The translations under genes were made by a program, and so were the position numbers. Positions 8,469-17,762 of a stretch of 64,000 nt of DNA are shown piece by piece (position 1 is the first letter of the stretch; the number at the start of each line of letters is the position of its first letter). The notes beneath the pieces were generated by a model that saw nothing but the letters and a program-made list of their open reading frames with translations, did not search any database and was not told the origin of the DNA. Source of the stretch: Spirochaetia bacterium (GTDB lineage Bacteria; Spirochaetota; Leptospiria; Turneriellales; JAOUOS01); contig JAOUOT010000005.1 in NCBI GenBank assembly GCA_029880265.1, forward strand, positions 1-64,000, written 5' to 3'.

Positions 8469-9050
8469 TTAAGTTATTTCAAGATCAAAGTCTTTTGCCA
8501 GCGAACCGCCAAGATCAATCTCATGCGTTTTGCCCATAAGATAAATTTCGACCGTAATTCTTTTTTTGCGGGCGTTTACTTTCTTGATTACGGCTTCTTT
8601 TCCTTTCAGGGGGCCCTCCAGTATTTTTATCTTTGTTCCCGATTTTACAAACTTTGAAAAATTAATCGTTTCGCTTTCCTGCGTCAGCTCAAAGATATAA
8701 GCGATTTCTTCGGTCTTTACCGGCAGTACCTCTTTTTTCTCAGATATTTTTGTATCGGCGATTCCTAAAAATTTTGTTATGGATGTTTTTAAGCCGGTTG
8801 TTCGACACCTTCTTAATACTTCAAGGGCCTTTTCATAATCAATTTTTTCTTCAAAAGAAATGAAAATATATCCGGGAAACAAAGGCTTTTTCTCTTTTTT
8901 TATTTTACCTCCTTTTCTAATTTCAAGTTCTCGTTTGGGTATAAAAGTTTTAATCTCGGGAAATTCTTTTTTGAGTTTTTCTCTTGCATCTTCTTCATTG
9001 CCCCCGTATGCTTGAACGGCATACCACCAGTTATTATTTTGAACAGACAT
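8469..9050 (-). CDS. NusG paralogue (LoaP/RfaH-type processive antiterminator)
   Basis: A 193-residue two-domain protein. The NGN domain (about 7-95) opens with WWYAVQAYGGNEEDAREKL and has the PLFPGYIFIS strand that contacts RNA polymerase. The C-terminal KOW domain (about 140-182) has GTKIKILEGPLKGKEAVIKK and ends in a VEIYLMGKTHEIDLG strand reminiscent of LoaP. The general NusG normally sits beside secE and ribosomal protein genes; here the context is trpF-mutS, so this is more likely a specialised paralogue that helps transcription through selected long operons. Its ATG is 3 bases after the mutS stop, so it is the last gene of that operon. Confidence 0.8.
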   Translation of the reverse strand: MSVQNNNWWYAVQAYGGNEEDAREKLKKEFPEIKTFIPKRELEIRKGGKIKKEKKPLFPGYIFISFEEKIDYEKALEVLRRCRTTGLKTSITKFLGIADTKISEKKEVLPVKTEEIAYIFELTQESETINFSKFVKSGTKIKILEGPLKGKEAVIKKVNARKKRITVEIYLMGKTHEIDLGGSLAKDFDLEIT

Positions 9051-9053
9051 ATT

Positions 9054-11573
9054 TTATGAGAACATCGAGAGTTGATCTATATTTTTGGGCCTTTTCACCA
9101 TACTTTTCTTTGCCGTCTTTTCTGTCTGAAAGACAGGTTCCTGCTTCCAAAGCCCGTCGGTCTCAAGCTCTTTTAAAAGCTCGACGGCGCGATTTGTGAT
9201 TTCTTCGGGAAGACCGGCCATTTCGGCCACATGAATGCCGTATGATTTGTCGGCCTTGCCCTCGATTATTTTTCTTAAGAATACAACCTTGTCATGTTCT
9301 TCTAAAACAGAAACGGTAAGACCAATGATGCCTTTGTCGGGCTCTATCATCTCGGCAAGCTCGGCATAATGCGTTGCAAAAAGCGTTTTCGGGCGCCCTA
9401 AATCTTCGCGGTTTAAATATTCAATCATCGCGCGGGCAATGCTTATGCCGTCAAAGGTAGAAGTTCCGCGCCCTACTTCGTCTAATAAAATCAAAGATTT
9501 TTCGGTAAAGTTTTGAAAGATGCGCGCGCATTCAGACATCTCAACATAAAAGGTGCTTTCGCCTTTGAACAACCTGTCAAAGGCGCCTATTCTGGTAAAC
9601 ACCCTGTCTGCAAGAGGCAGCTGCGCAAAAGCCGCCGGCACGAAAGAGCCCGCCTGCGCCATAATTTGAATGAGACCCGTTTGTCTTATAAAAGTCGATT
9701 TGCCCGACATGTTCGGGCCGGTTAAAACCGCTAGGTGCCTACCGCTATTGTTTAATTCAATATCATTGGGAACAAATATTTCTTCGCGAAAAATTTCTTC
9801 AACCACGGGATGCCTTGACTCTTTTAATAAGAGAGCGCCGGTTTCAACAATTTCAGGGCGGATGTATTTTTGCAAAACAGCGGCTTCTGCAAAAGAGAAG
9901 AAAACGTCTAACATAGAAAGTCGCTCTGCCCATACTCTAAGAATATCGGTGTTTTCAATGGCTTTTTGAACCAGCCCTTCAAAAATTGATTTTTGAAGAG
10001 CAAGAATATCGTCTTTGGCGTTTAAGATTTTATTTTCAAGATCTTTTAATTCGTCGCAGGTGAATCTTTCTGCGTTGACAAGGGTCTGTCTTCTTACGTA
10101 ACTTTGCGGAGCTTTATCAGATAATCCCCTCGAAATTTCAATATAATAGCCTATTACTTTGTTATATTTTATTTTTAAGGTAGAAATTTTATACTTTTCT
10201 TTTTCTCTGTTTTCAAATTCTTTCAATATAAGATGGGCCGATTCGCTGGTTTTAAAAAGATCGTCTAAAATATCAGAATATCCCGGCTTTAAAAATCGTC
10301 TTTCATCTAAAACAGGAGGAAGATTTTCTGTAAAAAGAGCGGCGTCAAACTCGCTTAATAGATCATCAGGAAATTCGTTTTGCAAATCATAGTTTTTATT
10401 TATCCATTTAGGCAGATTCGTTTCTTTTGATAATGAATCTTGTATCTGCCGAATTGATTTCATGGTTTCAAGAAGCGCGCCTAAGTGCCTTACGCGGGGT
10501 TCATGATAAAGAGCGTTTATGATTCTAAAAAGGTCATGGCAGTCTTTTAACAGACTTCTTATGACTTTTCTGGTTTCTGATTTTTCGCAGGCAAAATAAA
10601 CACAGTCGTGCCTCTCTTTTATTTCATTCATATCAAAAGACGGCGCCGATAAAAACTCGTCTAACTTTCTTCTGCCCGCCGAGGTAACCGTTTTATCAAG
10701 AACGCCGGCAAGAGAAGCCTTTCTTGTTCTGTTTTGGTCGGTTAATATTTCAAGGGTTTTTAGGGCCGAATCGTCAAGAACCATTTTTTTCAACTGATTT
10801 TCATTTCGCAGCGCTTTCCAGTTAATATTTACTTTAGGCGCAATTTCTTTCATGTACCGGTAAAAAGAGGCCAAAAGCGTTTTATCTTCAGGGTTTAACT
10901 CAAACGGATCAATATTTTTAACCTGAAACATTTCTCTTAAGATTTCATCGGTATTTTTTTCGCTTAAATTATAATTTCGACGCGTTAACGCTATGCTATG
11001 AAATTCCATAGCGGGTATTTCTGCCAGCGTTACGGCCTCTTTTGCGCCTCTCGATTCTAGAAACCCTTCTATATCGCCTGCCGGTTTTTTTTGCAGCCAT
11101 AACTCGCCTGTAGAGACATCGGCCAGTAAGATAGAAATTTCGTCTTTTGAGGCGTTTAATACCGCAATCAGCCTTTTTTCATGCGCCGATAGCAAATCTT
11201 CTTCAAAAATGCTTCCCGGCGTAATTACGCGCACAACGTCTCTTTTTACTATTTTTCCGGCGGCGTTTTTAGGGTCTTCAACCTGCTCGCAAACGGCTAT
11301 GTTCTTTCCCGATTCTAATATTTTATGAACATAATTATGCATGGCATGATACGGTATGCCGCACATGGGAACCTTATCTTGCCTTTTGGTAAGGGCTATA
11401 TCAAGAACTCTTGCCGCGTAAACGGCGTCGTCTAAAAACATCTCGTAAAAATCGCCCATTCTAAAAAAGAGTATATCGTCTGCAAACCTTCGTTTTATCT
11501 CAAGGTACTGCCTCATCATCGGGGTAGATACCTCGGGCATTTCTACAGATTTATTTTCGGTATCTTCGCTCAT
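9054..11573 (-). CDS. mutS: DNA mismatch repair protein MutS
   Basis: MutS recognises base mismatches and small loops and starts mismatch repair. It is 839 residues with the full domain set. The mismatch-reading motif is GDFYEMF, giving F42-x-E44. The connector, lever and clamp regions follow. The ATPase has a Walker A at 619-627 (GPNMSGKST), an ST(F)YVEMSE signature and a Walker B ILLDEVGRGTS near 696-706. The C-terminus ends in a QLSMF motif, like the beta-clamp-binding peptides seen in other MutS proteins. It overlaps trpF by 4 bases (ATGA), so it is translationally coupled. No mutL is present. Confidence 0.97.
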   Translation of the reverse strand: MSEDTENKSVEMPEVSTPMMRQYLEIKRRFADDILFFRMGDFYEMFLDDAVYAARVLDIALTKRQDKVPMCGIPYHAMHNYVHKILESGKNIAVCEQVEDPKNAAGKIVKRDVVRVITPGSIFEEDLLSAHEKRLIAVLNASKDEISILLADVSTGELWLQKKPAGDIEGFLESRGAKEAVTLAEIPAMEFHSIALTRRNYNLSEKNTDEILREMFQVKNIDPFELNPEDKTLLASFYRYMKEIAPKVNINWKALRNENQLKKMVLDDSALKTLEILTDQNRTRKASLAGVLDKTVTSAGRRKLDEFLSAPSFDMNEIKERHDCVYFACEKSETRKVIRSLLKDCHDLFRIINALYHEPRVRHLGALLETMKSIRQIQDSLSKETNLPKWINKNYDLQNEFPDDLLSEFDAALFTENLPPVLDERRFLKPGYSDILDDLFKTSESAHLILKEFENREKEKYKISTLKIKYNKVIGYYIEISRGLSDKAPQSYVRRQTLVNAERFTCDELKDLENKILNAKDDILALQKSIFEGLVQKAIENTDILRVWAERLSMLDVFFSFAEAAVLQKYIRPEIVETGALLLKESRHPVVEEIFREEIFVPNDIELNNSGRHLAVLTGPNMSGKSTFIRQTGLIQIMAQAGSFVPAAFAQLPLADRVFTRIGAFDRLFKGESTFYVEMSECARIFQNFTEKSLILLDEVGRGTSTFDGISIARAMIEYLNREDLGRPKTLFATHYAELAEMIEPDKGIIGLTVSVLEEHDKVVFLRKIIEGKADKSYGIHVAEMAGLPEEITNRAVELLKELETDGLWKQEPVFQTEKTAKKSMVKRPKNIDQLSMFS

Positions 11574-12229
11574 CTTCTTTGTTTAGATTTTACCAGTTTA
11601 ATAAAATTTATCATCTTTTCGGTGTCTTTTATGCCGTAAGATTTTTCAACGCCGCTGGCGGTATCGACCCCTAACGGGTTTACTTTTTCAAGAGCCTCTG
11701 AAACATTTTCTAAATTGATGCCCCCCGCGAGTAGAAAAGGCATATTTATGTTAACTAAGAAATTCCAGTTAAACGTTTTTCCCGAGCCTCCGGGTATAAT
11801 TTTTGTTTTATCTATCTGAATGCCCGCTGAATCGAAGATTACAAAAGAAAAAATATCAAATTTTTTTATAATCTCGGGCGCAATCTCTTCTTTAACGGCA
11901 ACCGACGGAATAATGTTTTCAACGTCAATTTTCTGAATTATAGAGTCAAATGATTTATGATCTGAAGGCAATTGAACATATAAATTTTTTGTTTTGAGTT
12001 TTTGCCGGCAAGAAAGAATATAATCTTCTTCGTCAAAACCGAATACCAGAACAAATTTTGCATCAGGCAGTAAATTTATTATATTTTGAGCTTTTTCTAT
12101 ATCGGCGCATCGCTTGCTTAAAGGATGCAAAACAATTCCTAAATAATCGGCGCCTTTTTCATAGGCGTCTTTGGCGTCTTTTAAGTTTGTTAACCCGCAA
12201 ATTTTTACCAGAAAACCATTTTTTTTCAT
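11570..12229 (-). CDS. trpF: phosphoribosylanthranilate isomerase TrpF
   Basis: TrpF catalyses the Amadori rearrangement of phosphoribosylanthranilate in tryptophan synthesis. It is 219 residues, of the usual size. The start KICGLTNLKDAKDAYEKGAD and LGIVLHPLSKR are diagnostic of the TIM barrel; the catalytic Cys is C11 within KICG, and the late phosphate-binding segments LLAGGINLENV and GVDTASGVEKSYGIKD are intact. No other trp gene is nearby. It heads a trpF-mutS-nusG-like operon. Confidence 0.95.
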   Translation of the reverse strand: MKKNGFLVKICGLTNLKDAKDAYEKGADYLGIVLHPLSKRCADIEKAQNIINLLPDAKFVLVFGFDEEDYILSCRQKLKTKNLYVQLPSDHKSFDSIIQKIDVENIIPSVAVKEEIAPEIIKKFDIFSFVIFDSAGIQIDKTKIIPGGSGKTFNWNFLVNINMPFLLAGGINLENVSEALEKVNPLGVDTASGVEKSYGIKDTEKMINFIKLVKSKQRR

Positions 12230-12302
12230 GACAATAATAAATATTCAAGTGAAATTCGCTATATATATTTATCGTTTCGGTCAGACCTCGCCGAAGTTCT
12301 AT

Positions 12303-13553
12303 TTAAGTTAAGAGTACAGGAAGTTCAACTTCAAAGTTTACCATCAGTTCTTTTTTGCCTTCCATGTCGACATAATCATTTAACTGCGAAACAGAAATTT
12401 TGCCTTTATGTTTTTGAATTATCTTGTTTACCATCGTTAACCCTAAACCATAATCAAGCGTTCCGTAGCGTTCGTCAAGATATTTTGATAGACGAAAAAA
12501 AGGCTCAAATATAATTCTTTCATAACCTGCGGGTATTCCCTCGCCGTCGACAGCCGATTTTGACGGAGAATTTAAGAATGAGACAGTTAATTTATTTTTT
12601 GCGACGGTCATTAGAATAATGATAGAAGTATCAGCCTCTGAAAAGCGCAGCCCATTTAGTATCACTTCTTTGACCGCCTTTTTTAATTGTTCTTTATTGA
12701 CGTTCACCTTTTGACCGCTAAGAGGAAAGTTAGGATCGCTTATTTTCACCTTATGATTTTTTATTTTTATAAGTTCGTCAAGATCGACAATGACCTCTTT
12801 AAGAAGCTCGTAAATTTCAAGAGGGCTTACAGGAACAAGCCTGAAGTCTTTACGAATCAACTCGTCAATTTCGCTGATTACTTTTAGCGCCTTTTCGGCC
12901 ATTTGAGTATTTGAGATGATAAGATCCATTAAATTTGCTTCAATTGTATATTTATCGCCTTCTTTATGTATCTGCTTGGTCAATAATGAAAGTAAAGAAA
13001 TTAACGTGCCGATACCCGCCCCCTGGGTAAAGCTTGTCTTCAAACTTGCGAACAGATTTTTATCATATTTATCAAAGCCTTTTTTGCTTGAAATTTCTTT
13101 TCTAAGAAGGTTCCAGTCTAATTGTCTGGCAAGCCGCACTTCTTGTTCTTTTTCTACGGCTTTTTCCATTTTTTTTAGGCCGGCTAATTCAAAAGCTTTT
13201 TCTACTTTAAGAAGAAGTTCTTCTGAATTGACGGGCTTATTAATATAGTCATAAACGCCCTGCTTCATGATTGATACGACGGTTTCAACGTCTCTATCGG
13301 CGGTTTGAACAATAACAATGGGTTCATTGCCGGTTTTTTTCATTTCCTGGATAAGGTCAAAGCCCGACATCTTCGGCATGTTTAAGTCAATAATGGCAAT
13401 AGGGTAAAAATATTCTTTATACCTTTCTAAAGCTTCTTCTCCGTTTGCGGCTAAAACCGGAGTATAATTATTTTTTGATAATATATTTGATATAATTTTT
13501 GCCGATACAGGATCGTCTTCAGCAATTAAGATTTTACTTTTCTCTGGTTTCAT
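12303..13553 (-). CDS. response-regulator receiver fused to a histidine-kinase-like ATPase
   Basis: A 416-residue soluble protein. The receiver domain (5-120) has the acid pair D13-D14, phospho-acceptor D56 in IIDLNMPKMSG, and Lys in YINKPVN. A helical middle (about 130-275) lacks an obvious H-box. The C-terminal domain (about 280-412) is an HATPase fold with LNGLRFSEADT as N-box, a degenerate G1, and YGLGLTMVNKII as G2. It may be an atypical kinase controlled by its own receiver. Its ATG overlaps the stop of the upstream TPR gene by 4 bases. Confidence 0.82.
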   Translation of the reverse strand: MKPEKSKILIAEDDPVSAKIISNILSKNNYTPVLAANGEEALERYKEYFYPIAIIDLNMPKMSGFDLIQEMKKTGNEPIVIVQTADRDVETVVSIMKQGVYDYINKPVNSEELLLKVEKAFELAGLKKMEKAVEKEQEVRLARQLDWNLLRKEISSKKGFDKYDKNLFASLKTSFTQGAGIGTLISLLSLLTKQIHKEGDKYTIEANLMDLIISNTQMAEKALKVISEIDELIRKDFRLVPVSPLEIYELLKEVIVDLDELIKIKNHKVKISDPNFPLSGQKVNVNKEQLKKAVKEVILNGLRFSEADTSIIILMTVAKNKLTVSFLNSPSKSAVDGEGIPAGYERIIFEPFFRLSKYLDERYGTLDYGLGLTMVNKIIQKHKGKISVSQLNDYVDMEGKKELMVNFEVELPVLLT

Positions 13554-14413
13554 TGTAAATCAAAAATAATATTCGGAATTTTTTTAAGCGAACCGTCTTG
13601 CATAAGAGGGTAAAGATGCGTCATATCTTTGGCTGTTATCACAATTTCTCCCCATAATTTCATGCATTTATCTAGCACGTCAAGGGCTTCATTTTTCTTG
13701 TTTACGCCCGTTAAAGCTTTGCTTAAAATAAAAAGCGCCTCAGGATCAGTTTCTCCCCATTGAGAAAAATGCTTATTAATATATTCAATTGCCCTGTCGT
13801 ACTCTTTATAAAAGAGACAGCATTCTGCGATTAAGTCATGATATGGAAAATCTTTATCTTGTTTTGCGGCATGCAAAAATAAGAGAAGCGATCTGCCATA
13901 ATAACTGCTATAAAAATACAAATTAGCCAATTCCATATACAAAAAGTATAAAGCAGGATCATTTTTTTTTCTTGTTTTTCGGGCGACTCTCAAGGTCTTT
14001 TTTAAGATACCGATAGCTTCTTTACCCCTGTGATTATCTCTTAAAAGCTGAGAAAATGTTAAAGCATACTGCACATTAGCCGGAAAAAGGCAAACCGATC
14101 GTAAATATAACCTCGAAGCCTTATCGGTTAAGCCGATATTTTTATAAAAATTTCCCGCAATAAAGTTTATTTTTGCGCTTAACGGATTTTCGTTTAGCAG
14201 CTGCTCCATATAATGTTTTGCCGCTTCAATATTGCCAACCTGTACCAGGCACTGTATTTTCATTTGAGCAATATTGGTTTTTAGGTGTTCATTTTCAACT
14301 GTTTTTTCAAGAGAAGATAGAAGATTAAATGATCGAGTATAATCTTCATCGTGAAAAAGCTCCTGAGCTTCTCGCAGTCTTTTAAAAACTTTTCTTCTTT
14401 CAGAGATAGGCAT
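13550..14413 (-). CDS. TPR-repeat protein coupled to the receiver-ATPase gene
   Basis: A 287-residue, all-helical protein with about seven tetratricopeptide-type repeats, for example the segment with INFIAGNFYKNIGLTDKASR and the later DPEALFILSKALTGVNKKNE. It has no signal peptide, so it is probably cytoplasmic. The 4-base ATGA overlap with the downstream receiver-ATPase gene suggests the two proteins work together, with the TPR protein as scaffold or input. A 30-bp inverted repeat lies 68 bp upstream of the start. Confidence 0.75.
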   Translation of the reverse strand: MPISERRKVFKRLREAQELFHDEDYTRSFNLLSSLEKTVENEHLKTNIAQMKIQCLVQVGNIEAAKHYMEQLLNENPLSAKINFIAGNFYKNIGLTDKASRLYLRSVCLFPANVQYALTFSQLLRDNHRGKEAIGILKKTLRVARKTRKKNDPALYFLYMELANLYFYSSYYGRSLLLFLHAAKQDKDFPYHDLIAECCLFYKEYDRAIEYINKHFSQWGETDPEALFILSKALTGVNKKNEALDVLDKCMKLWGEIVITAKDMTHLYPLMQDGSLKKIPNIIFDLQ

Positions 14414-14670
14414 TCATACCCTCGCACACACATTGTTTATATTTTTGATTATATATCAATGCTCTTATCTCTGCCAATAAATTGTTCATAATTATATAAT
14501 ATTGAACAATTATTTTTATTTTTTATGATGTCAACTTTATTTTTTACTTAAAGACCGTCTCGGGGGCCGAAAATATATAACTTGTGGTATACGATTATTA
14601 AGGTAAGGCGTCAGTTTCTTCAGCCTGTACTCTTGTCTAAAACCATTCATCGCATGCTAGCTGTTAATTC
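14414..14670. other. intergenic region between divergent transcription units
   Basis: This separates the minus-strand TPR gene from the plus-strand RDD gene. It holds the 30-bp inverted repeat at 14481-14510 and, at about 14545-14665, a less AT-rich stretch with no credible reading frame or hairpin. The RDD promoter and leader repeat follow at 14671-14750. Confidence 0.5.
14481..14510. repeat. 30-bp interrupted palindrome, candidate operator
   Basis: ATTGTTCA at 14481-14488 and TGAACAAT at 14503-14510 are exact inverted arms. The centre contains a second palindrome, ATTATATAAT, at 14491-14500. Two-fold symmetry of this size upstream of a two-gene operon is typical of a dimeric regulator's binding site. 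It contains TATAAT-like boxes on both strands. Confidence 0.5.
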
Positions 14671-14699
14671 TTGACATTTTGTTAATAATAAAATATATA
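14671..14699 (+). promoter_or_regulatory. sigma70-type promoter of the RDD gene
   Basis: TTGACA at 14671-14676 and TATATA at 14694-14699, spaced 17 bases. The predicted start of transcription is near 14706. This places the TTG at 14679 inside the promoter, so that codon cannot be the start of the RDD protein. Confidence 0.65.
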
Positions 14700-14742
14700 C
14701 CTTTGGTTAATTATTTTTTTATAAGAAGTAATCAACCAAAGG
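14700..14742 (+). promoter_or_regulatory. leader inverted repeat covering transcription start and ribosome site
   Basis: The 14-base arm at 14700-14713 pairs with 14729-14742 at 13 of 14 positions (CCTTTGGTT with AACCAAAGG is perfect). The upstream arm spans the predicted transcription start and the downstream arm ends in the AAAGGAG ribosome site. It could be an operator at the promoter or, for a message starting slightly earlier, a hairpin hiding the ribosome site. Confidence 0.5.
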
Positions 14743-14750
14743 AGTTTCTT

Positions 14751-15278
14751 GTGGAAAAAAGAATTGGTTTTGGGAAAAGACTTTTAGCGTATCTCATTGA
14801 TATTGTTCTGGTCTTGGCTTTGTCAATGGTTTTAGGCCCTATTATTGGCGGCGTTTTAGGCGGCGCAGCGGGAGCCGCCGGTTCAGGGGGCGGCGCAGAC
14901 GCGGCAGTAGCAGGCGGTATCATGGGCACAATCATAGGCGCAGTAGCGGCCTCTGCTTTTATAATGGTCTTTTATTTCATAATAGAAGGCTTCGTAGGCG
15001 CAACTTTAGGAAAAATGATTTTAGGAATCAAAATTGGAACCGCCGACGGAAAAAACGGAAGTACTGGGCTGTATTTGACGCGTTATGCGATTAAGAATAT
15101 CGGTTCTCTGGTAGCTGTAATCGGATTGATTGTGTCTGTTGAAATTATTGGCACTATAGGCAGCTTACTAGGGCTTGTTATTCTGCTTGGTTGTTTCATG
15201 GCTCTTTCAAGCGGCAAACAAGCGCTGCATGATATTGCGGCAAAAACAGCCGTTTATAAAAAAGTAGATTTAGCTTAA
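14751..15278 (+). CDS. RDD-family membrane protein
   Basis: A 175-residue inner-membrane protein. The RDD signature is at the N-terminus: KRLLAYLIDIVLVLAL (Arg in the first helix and Asp in the same helix), and the later LGKMILGIKI segment is also typical of the family. There are three or four membrane helices, with a Gly/Ala-rich loop at about 38-60. GTG 14751 is chosen as start because GGAG sits 6 bases upstream and because the longer frame would begin inside the promoter. The function of RDD proteins is mostly unclear; some act in ion transport. It precedes a DUF898-M48 pair by 86 bp. Confidence 0.82.
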   Translation: MEKRIGFGKRLLAYLIDIVLVLALSMVLGPIIGGVLGGAAGAAGSGGGADAAVAGGIMGTIIGAVAASAFIMVFYFIIEGFVGATLGKMILGIKIGTADGKNGSTGLYLTRYAIKNIGSLVAVIGLIVSVEIIGTIGSLLGLVILLGCFMALSSGKQALHDIAAKTAVYKKVDLA

Positions 15279-15364
15279 GATTATGCATAACTTAAGGACG
15301 TAATAATTTTAAAAGAAAACCGACTATAATCGTGTTTTACGTCCTTTATATTTAAAGTAACATT

Positions 15365-16609
15365 ATGGATCAGAAAAGCAGAATACAGTTTGACGGAACA
15401 GGAGGAAAGCTGTTTAAGCTGTCTCTTGTCAATATATTACTCAGCATACTTACTTTAGGAATTTATTATTTCTGGGCAAAAGTAAAAATTCAAAAATTTA
15501 TTTATGCGGGAACAAAGGTCTACGGCGAGAGATTTGATTATCACGCAACGGGAAAAGAAAAATTTATCGCGTTTCTAAAGGCTCTTCCTGTTTTAGCGGG
15601 CATCGCCGGAATATACTACGGTTCGCAGCAATTAATGAATTATTTTAATGTACCCATTGAATATTCACAGTCTATATTGATTATTTTCTTTTATCTTATA
15701 TTTATTTTAATAGGCCCCTTGTTAATTGTGGCCAAGTCAAGATTCACTTTAAGCAGAAGCTCATGGAACAATGTTCATTTTAAATTCAGAGGTAAAGTTA
15801 AGCCTCTATATAAAATCATGCTGAAAGGGATATTTTTGTCTATTATTACAATAGGCCTATATTCTCCCTGGTTTATCTGTGAATTGCAAAAATATATGAC
15901 CGAAAATTCGAATTTCGGAAATATGCCTTTCAAATATACGGGCAAAGGCAAAGAACTTATAAAGTATTTTATATTGATATTTATCATGACAATTATTTTT
16001 ATAGGAATTATGGCAAATATCATAATTACAACAAGAGAAATTACAAAAAAAAATCTTCAAGACATAGAAGCTATGCAAAAAGAAAAGTTAGAAACACAAA
16101 TATCAATTCACAATGTTGACAATAAAAAATTCCCCAAAGAAAATAACGATTTGAAAAAAGACGATCCTGAAATTACCGAAGACGAAGAACCGACAATTGC
16201 AGAAGATTTTGAAGAAGAAAGCGATTTTCCCTTCAACCCTTATGTTTTAGCGGCCCTTCCCTTTTTATATTTAGCCTTTATAATTTATACTTTTTATTTA
16301 AAGACAAAGTTATATAAATATCATTGGGAAAACACTCATATTCAAGATAAGCCGATAAAATGTACAATAAAATTCGGGGAATATCTGGGCAATATTATTG
16401 CGGCCAATATTATTTTGGCCATTTCTTTTGGCATTGCAGCTCCCTGGGCATATATAATGGTAAAAAAATATGAATTAGAGACAATTTATTTACCCGAGAA
16501 TATCGATTTTCAAGCCATACAGGCGGCTCCAGCTGAAGGGTCGGCTTTTGCCGAAGCTTTCGAAGAAGCAGGCGATTTTTTAGATACCCTGGCAGATTTC
16601 ATTGGATAA
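15365..16609 (+). CDS. DUF898 (YjgN-family) multi-pass membrane protein
   Basis: A 414-residue inner-membrane protein with three copies of the DUF898 unit. Each has a helix ending in G-x-x-x-x-W (TLGIYYFWAKVKIQKFI near 35, TIGLYSPWFICELQKYM near 162, FGIAAPWAYIMVKKYEL near 365), and the first two go on to a YH(A/T)GK- or YTGKGKE-type segment. A very acidic insertion at about 250-290 (EDEEPTIAEDFEEE) separates the second and third units. DUF898 genes are often followed by an M48 peptidase gene, as here, where the next start codon overlaps this stop. Function unknown. Confidence 0.85.
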   Translation: MDQKSRIQFDGTGGKLFKLSLVNILLSILTLGIYYFWAKVKIQKFIYAGTKVYGERFDYHATGKEKFIAFLKALPVLAGIAGIYYGSQQLMNYFNVPIEYSQSILIIFFYLIFILIGPLLIVAKSRFTLSRSSWNNVHFKFRGKVKPLYKIMLKGIFLSIITIGLYSPWFICELQKYMTENSNFGNMPFKYTGKGKELIKYFILIFIMTIIFIGIMANIIITTREITKKNLQDIEAMQKEKLETQISIHNVDNKKFPKENNDLKKDDPEITEDEEPTIAEDFEEESDFPFNPYVLAALPFLYLAFIIYTFYLKTKLYKYHWENTHIQDKPIKCTIKFGEYLGNIIAANIILAISFGIAAPWAYIMVKKYELETIYLPENIDFQAIQAAPAEGSAFAEAFEEAGDFLDTLADFIG

Positions 16610-17762
16610 TACAGAAAACAATCAGGCCCATTACTACGATGGCCAAACCGTTTCGCCAGAAAAAGGCGTTTTAAGAGTTGATTTTGACGGAATTAAATTT
16701 ATTTCGGACGATTTAATAAAAGAATATATTTTCAAATTTGAAGAAATTGAGAATATTGTTCAATATCCCGATTCTTGCCATATCGAATTAATGACGGAAT
16801 CTTTAAGCGTTTCTAAAAAAATTAAAATCTATAACGCCGAACTTAAAAAACAAATAGAAACGCTTTGGCTGAAAAATAAACAAAGCGGTAAAGAGAAAAT
16901 CGCTTACAAACTGCATAATTTAAATTTTAAGAAAATATTTCTGATTTCATTAATTGTAATTCCCGCGTTTTCGGCGTCCATATTGTTTTTATTTTTTAAC
17001 GCATTCAGAATAATTCCGAAAAGTTACGACGTGTATATAGGAAATTCTGTATATGAAAAAATTGTAACTCAGTTAAGGCTAAAAGAATGTCAAAACACTG
17101 AATTAAAAGAAGCGGTTTACGATATTTTAAAGAGAATTCCTAAAGACCAAGATATTTTTCAATATTCAATTTTAATCGCAGACTCTGATATGGTTAACGC
17201 TTTGGCCCTGCCTGGGGGTAAAATGATTGTCTTTCATGAATTAATTGAGAAAAGCGATTCTCCCGAAGAATTGGCGGGAGTTTTGGCGCATGAAATCTCT
17301 CATATAGAAAAAAGACACGGCGTTCAGCAAATGATAAGAACGCTTGGCTTTTCTTTTTTGGTTTCTATTTTTATAGGCGGATTTGCCGAAGGCTTTGAAA
17401 CAATCGAAACAGCGGCAGAAATTGGGGCGACTTTGTTATTCTTCAAGTATTCCCGCAATTTTGAAGAAGAAGCCGACAAGACGGCACTGCAAAAACTTAT
17501 AAAAGGGCATATAAATCCCGAAGGATTCCTTCTCTTTTTTGAAAAACTGGATAAACTTGAAAAAGAGACTCTTGAGAAAATTGCAGATACCGAAGAAGAT
17601 AAAGAAACTTTTTATAGAGTGAGCGACTGGATTAGCACTCATCCCGCTTCAAAAGACAGAATAAAAAACATCAAAAGCGCATTACCGTCTGAGAAACCGG
17701 CTAATATGCCTTTTTCGAGCGCCAACTCATGGAGCGCTCTCAAACTAAAATGTAAAGAATAA
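16602..17762 (+). CDS. M48-family membrane zinc metalloprotease
   Basis: A 386-residue protein. A cytoplasmic beta-rich N-terminal domain (1-100) is followed by one membrane helix (about 110-133) and an M48 peptidase domain. Zinc ligands are H230 and H234 in HEISH and probably E290 in EEEADKTA; the upstream NALALPGG strand is the usual M48 substrate-edge motif. The protein probably acts in envelope quality control, as HtpX- and BepA-type enzymes do. Translation begins at TTG 16602, overlapping the DUF898 stop by 8 bases; no other in-frame start lies upstream of the domain. Confidence 0.9.
   Translation: MDNTENNQAHYYDGQTVSPEKGVLRVDFDGIKFISDDLIKEYIFKFEEIENIVQYPDSCHIELMTESLSVSKKIKIYNAELKKQIETLWLKNKQSGKEKIAYKLHNLNFKKIFLISLIVIPAFSASILFLFFNAFRIIPKSYDVYIGNSVYEKIVTQLRLKECQNTELKEAVYDILKRIPKDQDIFQYSILIADSDMVNALALPGGKMIVFHELIEKSDSPEELAGVLAHEISHIEKRHGVQQMIRTLGFSFLVSIFIGGFAEGFETIETAAEIGATLLFFKYSRNFEEEADKTALQKLIKGHINPEGFLLFFEKLDKLEKETLEKIADTEEDKETFYRVSDWISTHPASKDRIKNIKSALPSEKPANMPFSSANSWSALKLKCKE

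Follow-up and report, generated by a model that had tools for sequence, protein, structure and literature searches.

The DNA analysed here, a stretch of 64,000 nucleotides that we call the window, carries three genes in succession on its plus strand. The first, at 14751–15278, encodes an RDD-family membrane protein of 175 amino acids (Pfam PF06271, E = 1.5e-18). It is followed by a gene for a DUF898 membrane protein (15365–16609; PF05987, E = 2.2e-74), which overlaps a gene for an M48 metallopeptidase (16602–17762; PF01435, E = 4.9e-27). The GTG start codon of the RDD gene at 14751 is supported by homologues, the match to which begins MEKRIGFG at an ATG. Six bases before this codon, the sequence reads as a ribosome-binding site, AAAGGAG (14738–14744). 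The RDD reading frame also extends upstream without a stop codon as far as a TTG at 14679, and this extension reads in frame across the hairpin described below; no ribosome site is visible by eye at that TTG.

The same strand carries a promoter-like sequence, read by eye and found by a promoter pattern scan, in which a −35 hexamer, TTGACA (14671–14676), is separated by a 17-base spacer from a −10 hexamer, TATATA (14694–14699). Because the consensus promoter scan accepts only T as the sixth base, it does not list the latter. The window contains two instances of the pattern TTGACA-N16-18-TATAWW, as compared to an expected 0.17. Counting six or seven bases onward from the −10 hexamer, transcription would be expected to start on G at 14705 or 14706.

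Between these elements lies an inverted repeat. The sequence-only reading had described it as 14-base arms with one mismatch, and it is indeed present: the repeat search gave CCTTTGGTTAATTA (14700–14713) and TAATCAACCAAAGG (14729–14742), which are complementary at 13 of 14 positions. These are the outer parts of longer arms of 20 nucleotides (14700–14719 and 14723–14742) that are 85% complementary (17/20) and separated by 3 nucleotides. Two of the three mismatches become G-U pairs in plus-strand RNA, and the third is A-C, which does not wobble in that sense. The left arm opens on the base directly after the −10 box, and the right arm terminates on the second G of AAAGGAG, so that the ribosome-site bases AAAGG make up the outer end of this arm. 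The expected transcription start thus falls within the left arm, five or six bases from its beginning. The left-arm motif recurs as an imperfect direct repeat (13/16; direct-repeat family D1) at 14674–14689 on the plus strand, within the promoter spacer. This copy is a possible third half-site, and it may be due to chance; motifs resembling the left arm with at most three mismatches number 17 in the window, as compared to an expectation of 21.

How unusual is this arrangement? We roughly called 1005 genes in 1.20 Mb of the organism's own genome and ranked the 362 that have a ribosome-site motif, the other 643 being set aside. For hairpins whose right arm overlaps the ribosome site, the RDD gene ranks first of the 362, with a score of 15.6; the next gene scores 10.3, and the distribution over the 362 genes has a mean of 4.55, a standard deviation of 1.68 and a 99.5% quantile of 9.7. 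A score of 15.6 was reached in none of 1500 shuffles of the gene's own 60 upstream bases; when upstream regions were sampled from the 362 genes and shuffled, 2 of 201,719 sequences reached it. The earlier claim that joint placement at a promoter edge and a ribosome site is uncommon is therefore borne out. Repeats as such are common: those scoring at least 11 number seven in the window and two to five in each of five first-order Markov-shuffled windows, and 50 were found in 337 kb of contig C37, many of them within genes. The strength of the repeat alone is not unusual; its place is the rare feature. When only intergenic repeats scoring at least 9 and having at least four G/C per arm are considered, the window holds just two, at 14700–14742 and 15294–15346, and they flank the RDD gene.

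Other measures rank the region lower. By plain folding energy, the RDD upstream region is 11th of 362, and by the mean unpairedness of AAGGAG it is 89th of 362, a modest position that arises because the last two bases of this motif stay free, outside the stem. In an earlier set of 113 genes, the RDD gene was third by the score of a repeat at any position in the 60 upstream bases and, when a shorter ribosome-site motif was scored, second of 113 for openness. Taken together, the repeat at 14700–14742 is a real, statistically unusual feature.

The predicted folding of the RNA depends strongly on where its 5′ end lies. The segment 14700–14765 folds with −20.6 kcal/mol (z = −5.13), and none of 200 shuffled sequences was equally stable; the fold of an RNA beginning at 14706 is ordinary (z = −1.35). 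In RNAs whose 5′ end lies at 14500–14700, the ribosome site is predicted to pair with the left arm with a probability of 0.71; this value falls to 0.57 for a start at 14701, 0.36 at 14702, 0.10 at 14704 and 0.00 from 14705 onward. In the same vein, the ribosome site is predicted to be unpaired with a probability of 0.21–0.27 for starts at 14500–14700 versus 0.67–0.71 for starts at 14705–14712. Because transcription is expected to start within the left arm, the adjacent promoter would yield RNA that lacks the base of the stem over the ribosome site, and masking by the hairpin would be limited to RNA begun upstream. The earlier suggestion that a folded RNA could mask the ribosome site thus holds, as a prediction, for RNA entering from upstream, and fails for RNA from the adjacent promoter, where the pairing is 0.00. 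Among 49 genes of the genome that have a promoter-like site with its −10 element within 75 bases of the start codon, four have the expected transcription start inside a left arm, and the RDD gene alone of those four has a hairpin score above 5.

We propose, with a probability of about 0.4, that the repeat functions as an RNA hairpin with the transcription start nested in its left arm, such that the choice of promoter decides whether the RDD gene is translated. RNA from the adjacent promoter would begin at about 14705 or 14706 and lack the CCTTT of the left arm; its ribosome site would be free of the hairpin, and it would be translated. RNA entering from upstream would contain both arms, form a stem of some 19 pairs in which AAAGG is sequestered, and be poorly translated. 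The arms, the promoter-like sequence, the ribosome site and the start codon are observed, as is the dependence of the predicted folding on the 5′ end. From them we infer the actual start of transcription, the existence of an upstream RNA and the reduction of RDD synthesis by masking.

Several facts weigh against this proposal. The genes at 8469–14413 are all on the minus strand, and none upstream points in the same direction as the RDD gene. A long RNA would therefore need a promoter within 14414–14670 or antisense read-through, and the consensus scan gives only weaker matches as plus-strand promoter candidates upstream (14471–14529). Further, masking would be only partial, because the final two bases of AAGGAG remain unpaired, and the third arm mismatch is A-C rather than a wobble pair. 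The 17 distant homologue loci described below, which have no like hairpin, also count against the proposal. The start codon also behaves contrary to a simple gate. In the same folding run, the GTG is predicted to be unpaired with a probability of 0.61–0.93 in long RNAs and 0.64 for a start at 14705, and of only 0.06–0.12 for starts at 14706–14712, where another structure engages it. Openness in the long RNAs and pairing in most of the short ones would blur the predicted difference between the two. On the minus strand of this intergenic region, the divergent TPR gene has a good promoter-like site at 14448–14477 (TTGGCA-18-TATAAT, 11/12).

A promoter-dependent gate has a precedent in phage T4. 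In PMC3014915, long early RNAs of gene e are described as folding and being poorly translated, and late promoters, situated a short way before the ribosome site, as yielding RNA from which the 5′ portion of the structure is missing; the T4 genes soc, 49 and I-TevI are named there as having further inhibitory structures. The RDD gene shares with gene e a hairpin over the ribosome site of long RNA, although in the RDD case it is only predicted, and its masking spans AAAGG and not the last two ribosome-site bases or the start codon. Unlike gene e, the RDD gene belongs to a bacterial chromosome and encodes a membrane protein, its promoter is of the sigma-70 type, and no upstream transcript of it is known. 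A comparable arrangement is the IS10/IS50-type protection of transposase genes, in which an inverted-repeat hairpin masks the start region solely in transcripts that originate outside. The searched passages of PMC5006887 contain no account of it, and for the RDD locus, at which no mobile element is seen, such protection from read-through is a lead only. The feature thus resembles a known kind of control, the mechanism would be simple, and we regard the case as one of modest interest.

The main rival to an RNA gate is a DNA operator, in which a repressor, as a dimer or tetramer, would occupy both arms (approximately −6 to +37) and block initiation at the RDD promoter. Palindromic operators between the −10 box and the ribosome site are known for TetR/MarR-like repressors, and the RDD repeat is like them in its symmetry and in its position relative to the promoter: the site begins directly after the −10 box, its near-perfect two-fold symmetry overlaps the promoter, and the spacer holds the third, imperfect copy of the motif. 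It differs from such operators in that its arms are further apart, no regulator is adjacent and the right arm terminates within the ribosome site. From centre to centre, the 14-base arms are separated by 29 bp, a long distance for one dimer. A Pfam scan of 24 neighbouring proteins in the first 32.8 kb of the 64-kb window, four of which match no family, found no DNA-binding regulator. Nor does a clear regulon emerge, since the half-site with at most two mismatches has 52 matches in the organism's own genome as compared to 38 for a reversed control. Three matches have one mismatch; two of these are in open frames, and one, at C37:279170, consists of a ribosome site followed by an ATG. Under an operator, moreover, it could only be by coincidence that an arm ends precisely at the ribosome site. 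Control by a distant regulator with this single target is possible, and we hold an operator in general to be rather unlikely. The sequence-only reading had invoked both actions at once, a protein blocking transcription and an RNA masking the ribosome site; the joint placement on which it drew is real, and the simple addition of the two actions does not stand.

It is also conceivable, though slightly less likely still, that the repeat has no function and is a chance palindrome in AT-rich intergenic DNA. Repeats of similar general strength occur about once per 7–9 kb, and no conservation could be demonstrated. The RDD protein, used as a query against 61 genomes, matched in its own genome only, and among 391 other genomes of the phylum it gave three remote partial matches and no usable ortholog. 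At 17 distant homologue loci from other phyla, the upstream sequence showed no comparable hairpin over the ribosome site. A DNA query comprising the promoter and hairpin had some match, at E values up to 1, in 245 of 296 genomes of the phylum. The best of these outside the organism's own genome (E = 3.3e-6) extends over 45 bases of the promoter and left arm; such outside matches are short pieces of AT-rich sequence and were counted as noise. Against chance stand the joint fit with promoter and ribosome site and the shuffling results, which give a probability of approximately 1e-5 per gene; for the set of 362 genes this amounts to about 0.4%, and for the whole genome to a few per cent by estimate.

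A role in messenger stability is much less probable. A 5′-terminal stem-loop at 14705–14737, with the ribosome site just after it, could protect the 5′ end of the RDD messenger and so stabilise it, and RNA from 14705 is indeed predicted to form the inner stem still, with its first base paired (pair probability 0.59). A start only one base later, at 14706, would largely abolish that stem (0.02), and stabilisation leaves unexplained the CCTTT/AAAGG base of the palindrome. Remaining classes were set aside: Rfam families gave only a chance-level match (13.8 bits versus a gathering score of 61), the terminator scan lists no intrinsic terminator at 14700–14742, where none is needed because the upstream gene is divergent, and a reading as an integron attC-like site was dropped after comparison by eye with the attC consensus.

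The repeat had also been suggested as a possible control of the DUF898 and M48 genes behind the RDD gene, a notion that we find unsupported; in relatives, the DUF898-M48 pair stands without an RDD gene. A DUF898 match is present in 9 of 18 genomes of the order, the organism's own included. Among the eight other genomes, an M48 match lies directly beside DUF898 in seven, and in the eighth, G016, the two matches fall on separate contigs. The RDD protein has no match in any of these eight, and other genes occupy its place in G001, G006 and G003. The intergenic repeat scan found a second plus-strand inverted repeat, AAGGACGTAA / TTACGTCCTT, at 15294–15346, inside the 86-base gap between RDD and DUF898. 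It has perfect 10-base arms and a 33-base loop containing TATAAT (15325–15330), and it is no terminator by the rule of the terminator scan. It is either a poor terminator of the RDD gene or a control site (operator) of the next gene, and in both cases DUF898-M48 could be independent of the hairpin at 14700.

The nearest detected homologues of the RDD protein are in records from Bacteroidota, Aminicenantes and SAR324, a distribution that suggests acquisition of the RDD gene. There is a broader possibility, which as a whole we consider quite unlikely: a gate like that of T4 gene e, placed on an ordinary membrane-protein gene, may limit translation to RNA from the dedicated promoter and thereby insulate the RDD gene, which was probably acquired, against stray transcripts, and the palindrome at 15294–15346 may be the matching control point for DUF898-M48. 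If this were true, a translational gate best known from phage genes would have been carried into an ordinary bacterial chromosome, and an acquired gene would be shielded from stray transcription by 43 bases of DNA and no protein. The gate would also have a signature for which genomes could be searched, namely, an expected transcription start inside the left arm of a hairpin together with a ribosome site in the right arm.

As to the function of the RDD protein itself, an RDD protein of Bacillus subtilis, SppI, is described in PMC7568657 as an inhibitor of the membrane protease SppA. Given this role and the closeness of the RDD and M48 genes (14751–17762), the RDD protein might, by analogy, act on the M48 product.

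Elsewhere in the same genome, two intergenic palindromes resemble the one at 14700, possibly by chance. Both of them, L080 (G000:C37:194010–194049) and L087 (334657–334693), begin with CCT right after a sequence ending in TATA, and both end in AGG.
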